From Thiotrichaceae bacterium (GTDB lineage Bacteria; Pseudomonadota; Gammaproteobacteria; Eutrophobiales; Eutrophobiaceae), in assembly GCA_012960105.1 (NCBI GenBank), contig DUBV01000083.1, positions 7,352-63,654 of the forward strand: a stretch of DNA of 56,303 bases. Reading direction: 5' to 3'. Under the pieces are notes generated by a model. That model worked only from the letters and a program-made list of their open reading frames with translations. It made no database searches and was not told the DNA's origin. Below, one piece after another: positions 38,433-42,278 of the stretch. Both the position numbers and the translations under genes were made by a program. Positions within the stretch are counted from its first letter, which is position 1; each line of letters begins with the position of its first letter.

Positions 38433-41400
38433 CTACTGCTGTATGGTGACCGTCACCGTGGCATTAGGGGTGAGACCGCGTCCGCGACAGCGGAAACGTC
38501 CATCCTTCGACACGCTGCAGGTAACACCATCATTGTCAGCTACAACCGTCTGGCCTGGCTCGACAGTCCCTCGGTAGCGAAAACGTCCGCGGGCGTCCAC
38601 GACATCATACCCCGCTACGTCGGCTGCGGCTGCGGCTGTCTCTGCGGCTGCTTCTGCGGCATCGGCTGCGGCTGCGGCTGTGGCTGCGGCTGCGTTTGCG
38701 GCATTGACTTCAGCTGCGGCTGCTTCTGCTTCTGCGGCTGCTTCTGCGTCTGCGACTGCGGCTTCGGCTTCTGCGGCTGCGGCTGCTGCTGTGGCTTCGG
38801 CTGCGGCTTCGGCTGCGGCGGCTGTGGCTTCGGCTTCGGCTTCAGCTGCGACTTCGGCTGCGACTGCGACTGCTTCTGCGGCTGCTTCTACGGCTGCGGC
38901 TTCGGCTTCGGCTGCGGCTTCGGCGGCGGCTTCTGCTGCGTCTGCGGCTGCAACTGCGGCTGCGGCTGCGGCTGCGTCTGCGGCATCGGCTGCGGCTATG
39001 GCTTCTGCGGTTGCGGCTGCTTCTACGGCTGCGGCTTCGGCTGCGGTTGCGGTTGCGGCTGCGGCTGTGGCTGTGTCTGCGGCTGCGTCTGCGGCTGCGA
39101 CTTCGGCTGCGGCTGCGGCTACGGCTACGGCTGCGGCTGCGGCTGCGGCGTCAGCTTCTGCTGCGGCTGCGGCGGCTTCTACGGCTGCGTCTGCGGCTGC
39201 TTCTGCGTCAGCTACTGCGGCTGCGACTGTGGCTTCGGCTGCGACCGCGGCTTCGGTTGCGGCTGCTTCTGCGGCTGCGATGTCGGCTTCGGCCCTGGCT
39301 TCGATTGCGGCATCGGCTGCGGCTTCGGCTGCGGCATCGGCTACGATAGCGGTTGGGGTTGCAGTTGGGTTTGCGGCTACGACTGCGGCTGCGGCGTCAG
39401 CTGCGGCTGCGGCTGCGTCTAGAGCTGCTTCTGCGGCTGCGGCTGCGGCTGCGATTTCAGCTTCGGTTGCGGTTGGGTCTGCGGCTGCGGCTGCGGCATC
39501 GGCTGCGGCTTCGGCTGCGGCATCGGCTGCGTCTGCGGCTGCGCCTACGGCTAGGTCTACGGCTGCTTCTGCGACTGTGGCTGCGGCTGCGATTGTGGCT
39601 TCGGCTGCGACTGCGGCTGCCTCTGCTGCTAAGCCTTCGGCTAAGACTTCGGCTTCGACTAAGGCTACGGCTGCTGTTGCCTGTGCGGCTATGGCTACGG
39701 CTGCTGTTGCCTGTGCGACTGCGTCTGCTGGGGCTGCAACTGCGGCATCGACTGCGGCTGCGGCTGCGGCTGCGGCTGTGGCATCGGCTGCTTCTGCGGC
39801 TGTGACTGCGTCTGCGGCGGCGGCTTCGGCTACGGCTGCAGCATTGACTTCAGCTGCGACCGCATCTGCGATAGCGGCTGGGGTTGCGGCTGGGTTTGCG
39901 ATTGCTTCTGCGACTGCTGCGGCGGCGTCCTCGCTGGCTCTGATTGCAAGTCTGGCTTCGTCTCTGGCCACTTCTGCAGCTGCCTCTGCGTCTAGAGCTG
40001 CTTCTATGGCGTCTTTTGCGATGTCGGCTGCGGCTGCGTCTGCGGCTATGTCTGCAGCTGCCTCTGCGGCTGCGGCTGCGGCTGCGGCATCGTCTACGGC
40101 TGAGAGTGCGGCTACGACTGCTTGTGCGGCTGCGACTTCGTCAGCGGTTGCCTCTGCGGCTAAGGCTTCGGCTAAGTCTGCGGCTGCTGCTAAGTTTACG
40201 TCTGCTGGGGCTGCGGCTGCGGCTGCGGCTGCTTCTACCGCTGCGGCTTGGTTTGCGAGTATGACTTCAGCTGCGGTTTGGACCGTGGGTAGGACTGGAA
40301 CTGCCAACCCGTCTGCGACTGCTTGTGCGGTTGCGGCTTCGGCTACGACTTCGGCTAAGGCTGCGGCTGCTTCTGCGGCTGCTTCTGCGGCTGCGTCTGC
40401 AGCTGGTTGTGCGGCTGCGTTTACAAGTGCCTCTGCTGCTGCTGCTGCTCTTGCGGTGTTGGCTGCGGCTACGAATGCCTCTGCTTCTGTAACTGCGACT
40501 GCGGCGTCGATTGCGGCATCGGCTGCGGCTTCGGCTACGTTTACGCCCACGTCTCTGGCCTCGTCTGCGAAGGCTTCTGCGGCTATGGCTGCAACGACGG
40601 CATTGTTTGCGGCTGTGGTTGCGGCTGTGGTTTGAATTCCGATTTCGGCATCAGTTGCGCCTACGGCGACTGCGGCGACGGCTGCCTCTTCGGCGTCGAC
40701 TGCGAATCTGGCTGCGTTATCGGCGGCGTTTCTGGCATCTCCTGCAGCGTCCTCGATGATCTTGACGACGTCTGCGTTTAGGCCTGCGTTTACGTCTGCG
40801 GCAGCGAATAAGCCTTCGGCTTCGACTGCGGAGGCGTCGGCGTCTAAGGCGGCGGCTGCTGCTCTCGCGGCTGCTTGTGCGGGTGTGTTATCTGGTCCCA
40901 GGCCGTCATCACGTAGGTGTCTCTCGCTGAATCCAAGGACGCCGTCGATCCTCGCTTCGATGGTGAGGCTCGCGATCAAGGGTACGATGCCCAACCCGTC
41001 GAATCGTGCGCTATAGGTGGCACCGGGTGCGAGCGGGTCGATCACCAATTGAATGGTCCCTCGGCCTATCGGAATCTCGTTGATGTTGTTAAAGATTGCC
41101 TCTACCGTTACGTTAACGGTCTTATTGACGAATCCTCTAAACCTGATCATGCCTTTGTCGTTGTCGAAGCGGAATCGATCTGCGGTCACGTGGAGATCCC
41201 CATCAGGATCCACGAGCTCGGTTAGGACCTCTTGGGCAAACATAACATGCTCGCCCACCATATGGCCGATCACACCGACAGGCGTCCCAACTTTGGCTAA
41301 GTCAAAGAACCTCGCGCGGGTGAGCGGTGCCTCACCCAAACTCAGGGTGTCGGCACCGAACCGCGGATCTTGATTGAAGATGATAAGCAGTTCGTCGACC

Positions 41401-42278
41401 ACGAACGAATCGGGAGTTCCTGTCGCGGCATTCCCACGGACTATAGACTTAATGTCACCTTCTGAGACGTTCTCGGAGAGCTCGATGACCGCTTCGATGT
41501 CCGTGATCCAGTACCGTTCGGCAGCATTTCCAACCACATGGTAAACGTGCCCGGCCGACTTGAAGGTCCCGCCGGCCGTGACTGGGTACACTAGTGGATC
41601 GCGGAATCCCGCGCGATGGAGGAAATCAGCTGGCAGCAAAGTGGCGGCGTGTTTATCATAGGCCTTCTGCACCATGTCGAAATAGTTGGCCTCGATAGCA
41701 TCTTGAGTAACAGGATCACGAAACCTGCCCTCGCTCGTGCTGTAAATCGAGCGGGTCGGGCCGGTTCGACGCGGTCCCAAGCCAGCTTCGACTGCGGTAA
41801 GATCGCGATCATCTACGAATAGGTCAGTCCCCATGGCATTCGCATCGGGCAGGCGGTCGAAGTTCGCGGCTCCAATGCCCGTGAATGCCTCACCGTCCTG
41901 ACCGAGAATGGACGAGCCGAAGATCTGGAGCTCCTGGCCGTCGATCAGGGCCGGCATGGTGATGGTCTTGCCCGTGACGGTGATCCTCTTGTCGGCAGGA
42001 TTGATGTCCCATATCGGACCTTCTGTGGCGAACGCTTCAAGAGTATCAACTAGCTCTGTGCCGCCAGTGTTACAGACGATCACATCTACGAATTCTACAG
42101 GGTCAGTGCCTTCGACGGCACGCTGCTCTATGTGTGTTTTTGCACCATCGATCTCATTGTCACAAAGGAAGACGACCTTCCCCCGGACTGCCGGGGCTGC
42201 CAGCATTGACGCGGCCAGCACCAGCATGCCGATGCGGCCAGAAACACTTCTCGTTGTTTTTGTTAGTTGATTCGTCAT
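38433..42278 (-). CDS. Giant secreted alanine-rich protein, island cargo (1281 aa)
   Basis: Four parts. Residues 1-33: signal peptide (GRIGMLVLAASMLAAPAVRG). About 34-464: a mostly beta-type region of normal composition with two Cys (FLCDN, VIVCNTGG), segments such as ITVTGKTITMPALIDGQELQIFGSSILG, and a pro/gly-rich end; no family recognised. About 465-1223: about 760 residues dominated by Ala with Glu, Asp, Val, Thr and Ile and almost no Lys or aromatic residues, coded largely by alternating GCC-GCA; expected to form long acidic helices. 1224-1281: a compact beta-rich domain with RFRYRG and RFRCRGRG. GC content and codon use are unlike every neighbour. The opposite strand also has long open frames, but only this strand has a signal peptide and folded ends. 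Extracellular rod, adhesin or matrix protein is my inference. Confidence 0.8.
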   Translation of the reverse strand: MTNQLTKTTRSVSGRIGMLVLAASMLAAPAVRGKVVFLCDNEIDGAKTHIEQRAVEGTDPVEFVDVIVCNTGGTELVDTLEAFATEGPIWDINPADKRITVTGKTITMPALIDGQELQIFGSSILGQDGEAFTGIGAANFDRLPDANAMGTDLFVDDRDLTAVEAGLGPRRTGPTRSIYSTSEGRFRDPVTQDAIEANYFDMVQKAYDKHAATLLPADFLHRAGFRDPLVYPVTAGGTFKSAGHVYHVVGNAAERYWITDIEAVIELSENVSEGDIKSIVRGNAATGTPDSFVVDELLIIFNQDPRFGADTLSLGEAPLTRARFFDLAKVGTPVGVIGHMVGEHVMFAQEVLTELVDPDGDLHVTADRFRFDNDKGMIRFRGFVNKTVNVTVEAIFNNINEIPIGRGTIQLVIDPLAPGATYSARFDGLGIVPLIASLTIEARIDGVLGFSERHLRDDGLGPDNTPAQAAARAAAAALDADASAVEAEGLFAAADVNAGLNADVVKIIEDAAGDARNAADNAARFAVDAEEAAVAAVAVGATDAEIGIQTTAATTAANNAVVAAIAAEAFADEARDVGVNVAEAAADAAIDAAVAVTEAEAFVAAANTARAAAAAEALVNAAAQPAADAAAEAAAEAAAALAEVVAEAATAQAVADGLAVPVLPTVQTAAEVILANQAAAVEAAAAAAAAPADVNLAAAADLAEALAAEATADEVAAAQAVVAALSAVDDAAAAAAAAEAAADIAADAAAADIAKDAIEAALDAEAAAEVARDEARLAIRASEDAAAAVAEAIANPAATPAAIADAVAAEVNAAAVAEAAAADAVTAAEAADATAAAAAAAAVDAAVAAPADAVAQATAAVAIAAQATAAVALVEAEVLAEGLAAEAAAVAAEATIAAAATVAEAAVDLAVGAAADAADAAAEAAADAAAAAADPTATEAEIAAAAAAAEAALDAAAAAADAAAAVVAANPTATPTAIVADAAAEAAADAAIEARAEADIAAAEAAATEAAVAAEATVAAAVADAEAAADAAVEAAAAAAEADAAAAAAAVAVAAAAAEVAAADAAADTATAAAATATAAEAAAVEAAATAEAIAAADAADAAAAAAAVAAADAAEAAAEAAAEAEAAAVEAAAEAVAVAAEVAAEAEAEATAAAAEAAAEATAAAAAAEAEAAVADAEAAAEAEAAAAEVNAANAAAATAAAAADAAEAAAETAAAAADVAGYDVVDARGRFRYRGTVEPGQTVVADNDGVTCSVSKDGRFRCRGRGLTPNATVTVTIQQ
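38610..40886 (-). repeat. Hexanucleotide-like (GCCGCA) low-complexity tract inside the giant gene
   Basis: About 2.3 kb in which both strands are dominated by GCN codons, with the dicodon GCC-GCA on the coding strand and interruptions by GAA, GAC, GTA, ACA. Such sequence expands and contracts by slippage or unequal recombination, so length should vary between strains, and long-read data are needed for a reliable count. Confidence 0.75.

Follow-up and report, generated by a model that had tools for sequence, protein, structure and literature searches.

Introduction

Islands that integrate specifically at dusA supply this gene with a 5' end, displace the original one and are flanked by imperfect direct repeats; the published direct-repeat sites are 21-bp sequences and semiconserved (Farrugia et al., 2015, PMC4482086). 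Among bacterial surface proteins, the Ala-rich repeats of streptococcal antigen I/II help to form a stalk (PMC7732690), and for Ala-rich helices 3.7 residues per turn have been reported (PMC5304152). Here, we analyzed a window of 56,303 nucleotides from a Thiotrichaceae bacterium (contig DUBV01000083.1 of assembly GCA_012960105.1, positions 7,352 to 63,654), and we use the term window for this whole stretch of DNA. In it, the 5' end of dusA is occupied by an island of about 6.1 kb, and both this island, which carries a large G+C-rich (GC-rich) gene for an Ala-rich protein as cargo, and the repeat origin of the Ala tract are well supported. Overall, an orphan protein with an unusual build is encoded within a known kind of island. 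What is new here is the dusA-island setting, the repeat origin of the Ala tract and the fact that the collections searched yielded no credible relative of the protein.

Results

The gene is located in an island at the 5' end of dusA

The dusA locus was recovered in 10 of 11 genus relatives (71-82% identity), and the remaining genome (G010) contributed a distant paralogue only. In all 10 genus relatives that were fetched, dusA and mutH are adjacent with no gene between them, whereas in the present window the two genes are about 6.1 kb apart. BLAST comparison of the flanks covered two of the relatives. Against the first one (L027), homology extended up to 36818 and started again from 42916, and the two segments overlapped by 18 bp in L027. 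Against the second one (L028), homology extended up to 36823 and started again only from 42988, and no overlap was seen, so that the overlap of the ends was observed in one of the two relatives. The far end of the island still encodes the dusA start MNKNNIDRRLSIAPMMD, as it is found in the relatives. On the opposite side, a tyrosine integrase directly adjoins the dusA start, and its best phage relative is 36.7% identical. The locus thus has three features of a dusA island: an adjacent tyrosine integrase, a new dusA 5' end and imperfect direct repeats.

The reading frame is a real coding sequence in origin

When we shuffled codons 1-464 with conservation of the dinucleotides (300 shuffles), none of the six frames stayed free of stops for more than 292 codons. 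The frame of 1281 codons is therefore not a product of chance. GC at codon positions 1/2/3 of residues 1-464 was 0.62/0.43/0.64 and, because of this codon pattern and the shuffle limit, the stretch 38433-42278 is a real coding sequence in origin. A sequence-only reading of the window had described a GC-rich gene in an AT-rich chromosome, and the GC of the four 1-kb blocks between 38001 and 42000 (0.563-0.675 vs 0.315-0.428 for the remaining blocks of the window) agrees with this description. AT-rich sequence is found in the 50-base block that includes the start codon and further upstream of the gene. This upstream DNA contains two-copy tandem repeats of 18 bp (42412-42449) and 23 bp (42428-42473), which overlap the sole promoter-like match upstream on the strand of the gene (42438-42409); they could be a regulator site.

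The layout of the protein was also confirmed. A signal-like start is followed by about 430 residues that we could not place, by a tract of 759 residues, which makes up more than half of the whole protein, and by a tail of 58 residues. Ala accounts for 56.4% of the tract and, together with Glu (9.7%), Val (8.7%), Asp (7.0%) and Thr (4.6%), for 86% of it. The tract carries 127 acidic and 11 basic residues (net charge -116) and contains 11 Pro. Its description as lysine-free was nearly correct: there are two Lys (K506, K755) in addition to nine Arg. Residues 1-33 combine a basic start, a hydrophobic run and an Ala-Pro-Ala motif, and because of these features the product is probably exported via the Sec route. 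The signal peptide claimed before is thus a putative one, read from these residues. The protein terminates with VTVTIQQ and an LPXTG motif is absent.

The Ala tract very probably originates from a hexanucleotide repeat

The DNA of the tract forms a 6-bp array of 270 copies with 65% matches. At the third codon base, the lag-1 autocorrelation of A and C was -0.512, compared with -0.012 +/- 0.032 in 1000 synonymous-codon shuffles. There are 228 adjacent Ala-Ala pairs, and 188 of them read GCC-GCA or GCA-GCC; 21 read GCA-GCA or GCC-GCC and the remaining 19 involve GCT or GCG. Among 60-codon blocks, those of residues 885-1064 alternate most cleanly, and mixed patterns occur in the blocks at 825 and 1065. 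Codon preference by itself would yield no alternation. Because of the GCC/GCA alternation, an origin of the tract by expansion of a GCAGCC hexanucleotide is strongly indicated.

For 583 of the 758 codons the repeat phase is clear, and here we counted 93, 219 and 105 departures from the repeat at codon positions 1, 2 and 3 (from G, from C and from the phase, respectively). When all 758 codons were considered, the corresponding numbers were 128, 282 and 146. Departures at second positions are thus about double those at first or third positions. Since random decay should affect the codon positions about equally, we infer that selection acted on the protein sequence of the tract, with the caveat that the founding repeat unit may have encoded other residues besides Ala. 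A link of Glu and Asp to the repeat phase was rejected (37 Glu in the A phase vs 26 in the C phase). A search for a second copy of the repeat in the genome yielded a single match on another contig (C89), which is located in an open reading frame (ORF) that we take to be RpoD, and this candidate was discarded. One further repeat match was present in a relative (G003).

The six-base repeat may also have left traces on the opposite strand. There, an ORF for 651 amino acids (38680-40635, plus strand) runs across the Ala tract, and several shorter ones are present in other frames. We take these frames to be by-products of the repeat, which annotation pipelines could mistake for genes.

Periodicity of the tract is compatible with an Ala helix

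Across the whole tract, the non-Ala residues recur with a period of 3.72 (0 of 1000 shuffles reached this power) and the acidic residues with the same period (1 of 1000). The longest stretch free of Pro and Gly comprises 247 residues (976-1222); its acidic residues have a period of 3.73 (0 of 1000), and it would measure 37 nm if it formed an unbroken helix. Among the individual segments, the acid periodicity was significant in residues 800-933 (3 of 1000) and 1098-1221 (1 of 1000). A single-sequence structure model of residues 465-1281 presents most of the tract as helical and has breaks at the Pro motifs 794-800, 933-939 and 969-976. For Ala-rich sequences, a helical model of this type is weak evidence. 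Taken together, the acid period of about 3.72 and a mostly helical model of low mean confidence keep the acidic Ala helix suggested by the sequence-only reading plausible. Because this period is close to the 3.7 residues per turn reported for Ala-rich helices (PMC5304152), an acidic stripe that runs nearly straight along the helix is plausible, and a right-handed coil would fit as well.

No credible relatives of the two ends were found

The N-terminal part matched no Pfam family up to an expectation value (E) of 1 and no PDB sequence up to E 10; NCBIfam and PHROGs each returned one weak match (E 0.16 and E 0.26), and PADLOC contained no credible relative. The whole protein matched no Pfam family up to E 1, among them FIVAR (PF07554), no NCBIfam model and no PDB sequence up to E 0.01. 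A search of the genome for the FIVAR family gave no match, but neither did any of the 14 controls. The tail alone had no credible relative in Pfam, NCBIfam, PHROGs, PADLOC, PDB, the plasmids and the viral contigs. For either end, no match below E 0.07 was obtained in Pfam, NCBIfam and PHROGs. The sequence-only reading had regarded homologues of the ends in a known family as an argument against its proposal; profile searches of both ends found no family, and the proposal was not refuted on this point.

Our pattern scans require an exact word of eight residues and thus detect close relatives only. With the N-terminal part, they gave 53 matches in the genome contig collection and two in the viral contigs, and with the tail 116 in the viral contigs; none of these matches was confirmed. 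Plasmid and phage collections contained no credible relative of the N-terminal part. We also searched genome samples that overlap each other (relatives, phylum, class, order). The N-terminal part found its own genome as single match among 96 relatives and among the 53 genomes of the order sample, and its own genome plus two others among the 398 genomes of the phylum sample. N-terminal part and tail joined gave three matches among the 369 genomes of the class sample, again the own genome plus two. Among 385 genomes of the class of G393, the N-terminal part again matched G393 and no other genome. There is no second copy of the gene within its own genome.

Four foreign matches of 14-19 bits (L025, L026, L042, L043) were treated as chance. 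In single-locus searches, which were run without low-complexity filter, L026 reached 36 bits (E 5e-6), but this match crosses a stop codon and lies opposite an ORF for 823 amino acids. The match in L042 (31 bits, E 2e-4) falls within an ORF for a presumed sulfurtransferase, and L025 and L043 scored 17.7 and 18.5 bits. A similarity of the tail to designed "Cake" proteins in PDB (best E 2e-06) was dismissed, as it sums eight matches of about 2 bits, none of which passes alone. Homology between residues 327-464 and the tail was rejected, too (E 0.27). In the literature on alanine-rich stalks, Alacoil, coiled coil surface proteins, antifreeze proteins and hexanucleotide repeats, no such protein appeared in titles or abstract openings.

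Other contents of the island

The sequence-only reading had called the gene the sole major cargo, and this characterization holds: the remainder of the island consists of the integrase, two small overlapping ORFs and an AraC-type fragment (Table 1). Judged from its sequence, this fragment is a decayed regulator gene. The frame of the integrase stops just past Lys-Arg-Tyr-Thr. A relic of 41 bp resembles the end of an insertion sequence (IS) of the IS3 family. It is 83% identical to an end located by an annotated IS3-family transposase on an Acinetobacter plasmid. When plasmids were searched with the relic (E 0.2), 300 of the 318 matched records were from Acinetobacter, many of them with multiple copies; another plasmid record that we inspected listed no IS3 gene at that place. 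The IS3-end pattern had no other copy in the genome. The relic may mark the route by which the GC-rich gene entered the island. Directly past the stop codon of the gene, a G+C-rich hairpin folds with -49.7 kcal/mol for 103 nucleotides (z -3.25), and none of 200 shuffles was as strong. A terminator scan that requires a T run listed nothing at this site; the hairpin is a possible terminator. Rfam gave no match within 36700-43100.

Table 1. Positions of the island features in the window
Feature	Position	Strand	Basis or remark
Left direct repeat, island end within dusA	36791..36817	+	21/27 identical to right copy
Tyrosine integrase, dusA side of island	36876..37844	+	PF00589 1.7e-20; phrog_1 9.4e-43
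Small ORF, 76 amino acids, unplaced	37877..38107	+	
Small ORF, 101 amino acids, unplaced; overlaps the 76-residue ORF in another frame	37974..38279	+	
Relic, 41 bp, like an IS3-family end, where GC rises on the 3' side of the gene	38317..38357	-	
G+C-rich hairpin, 15 pairs, directly past the stop codon	38374..38408	-	putative terminator
Gene of the GC-rich, Ala-rich protein	38433..42278	-	1281-codon ORF
Small tail, residues 1224-1281, low-confidence predicted strands	38436..38609	-	
Ala/acidic tract, residues 465-1223, degenerate (GCAGCC)n repeat	38610..40886	-	
N-terminal part, residues 34-464, family unplaced	40887..42179	-	homologue searches without credible relative
Signal-peptide-like segment, residues 1-33	42180..42278	-	read from sequence
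AraC-type helix-turn-helix fragment	42554..42643	-	HTH_18 E 2.2e-05, 25.1 bits vs 33.6-bit cut-off
Displaced original dusA start	42882..42965	-	comparison with relatives
Right direct repeat, island end by mutH	42906..42932	+	21/27 identical to left copy

Discussion

We interpret the product as an exported helical spacer between a head of an unplaced family and a small beta tail, and assign a probability of roughly 0.45 to this interpretation. The comparison with relatives shows that the island integrated at the 5' end of dusA, which it replaced with its own while the original one was moved away, and that it carries one large GC-rich gene of foreign composition. The tract very probably grew by expansion of the GCAGCC repeat, and substitutions, most of them changing the amino acid, may then have added acidic and small hydrophobic residues. 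The periodicity and the weak model suggest as outcome a long, strongly negative alpha helix, which in some segments would carry an acidic stripe on one side. Outside the cytoplasm, it could serve as spacer or stalk from the N-terminal head to the C-terminal beta unit, and its Ala faces may perhaps pack the tract into hairpins or pairs.

Several observations weigh against this interpretation. The acid periodicity was not significant in residues 465-711, 712-794 and 939-1090 (148, 555 and 691 of 1000 shuffles), and in residues 976-1222 the power was only 2.3 at exactly 3.70 compared with 9.4 at 3.72. Acidic pairs at lag 11 involve the same residue in 26 of 38 cases, and copied repeat units may contribute to the periodicity. 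The model splits residues 976-1222 at 1091-1097, a Pro-free site; for the tract, its mean predicted local distance difference test score (pLDDT) is 55.9, with values of 80-89 at residues 765-824, and the model of the N-terminal part is useless (pLDDT 34.7). Our searches of libraries, collections and sampled genomes yielded no homologue, and the other parts of the island are in decay. In the protein sequence, we recognized neither a membrane anchor nor a sorting signal. In the genome, no secretin scored above the type II cut-off and six weaker matches were seen, and the same search was positive in 6 of 14 control genomes.

The main rival explanation is that the gene worked in a GC-rich donor and is now idle as passive cargo, and we consider this quite possible. 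The AraC-type fragment, the IS-end relic and the integrase frame that ends after Lys-Arg-Tyr-Thr speak for it, and the lack of another copy in the own genome and in the rest of the order sample points in the same direction. However, 3.8 kb are still stop-free with intact codon structure and the departures from the repeat favor the second codon position, although these changes possibly date from the donor. That a GC-rich piece of another organism was joined into this metagenome-derived contig during assembly is improbable. GC shifts abruptly at both ends of the gene, and the order sample holds no relative outside the own genome, but both joints are situated inside an island whose ends are set independently by the dusA/mutH comparison, and islands commonly carry foreign DNA.

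Other alternatives concern the function of the protein. The protein could belong to a known stalked-adhesin family but be too divergent for sequence searches to reveal the relation. It would then share the order of signal-like start, helical rod and beta tail, and the tail weakly matched an adhesin model with Ca2+-stabilized repeats (E 0.077, 13.4 bits vs a cut-off of 50). Nevertheless, we regard such membership as unlikely, considering the family searches of both ends and of the whole protein, the PDB search with the N-terminal part and the lack of a sorting motif. The sequence-only reading had listed ice binding as an option. Ice binding as in type I antifreeze protein fits the abundance of Ala and a helical pitch of nearly 3.7 residues per turn (PMC5304152), but the Thr residues lack an 11-residue spacing (autocorrelation at lag 11, z 0.5) and the tract is strongly acidic. 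Among the explanations considered here we give it the smallest chance.

Returning to the exported spacer, a more far-reaching version would be a secreted family that builds its rod on a DNA microsatellite. The hexanucleotide repeat would give an Ala helix of adjustable length, selection at second codon positions would paint an acidic stripe at the pitch of this helix, and the result would be a spacer of variable length, at the surface or in the periplasm, which dusA islands carry from one bacterium to another. We consider this extension rather doubtful. The sequence-only reading had regarded the gene as its main candidate for an undescribed system. A system of several genes lacks support, as the island contains no recognizable partner gene, and no homologue offers a neighborhood for comparison. 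Provided that the product is made, the locus can serve as a test case for the origin of a structural rod: the codon alternation preserves the source repeat and the amino acids show the later additions. It is also an example of a dusA island in which a single large cargo gene is left.

The present element resembles dusA-specific islands (PMC4482086) in its insertion at the dusA 5' end, which it newly supplies, in the imperfect repeats and in the adjacent integrase. It differs from them in its very small size and in its content of a single large cargo gene next to decayed remains. With streptococcal antigen I/II (PMC7732690), the protein has in common a signal peptide, which is putative here, Ala-rich repeats of the stalk type and a globular domain. 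In contrast to antigen I/II, it has no Pro-rich partner region, no LPXTG anchor and no sequence match, and its Ala tract is located between head and tail. The type I antifreeze protein Maxi (PMC5304152) resembles our protein in having an Ala-rich helix in which one turn takes about 3.7 residues, whereas the tract described here is without TX10 repeat, strongly acidic, far longer and part of a larger protein.

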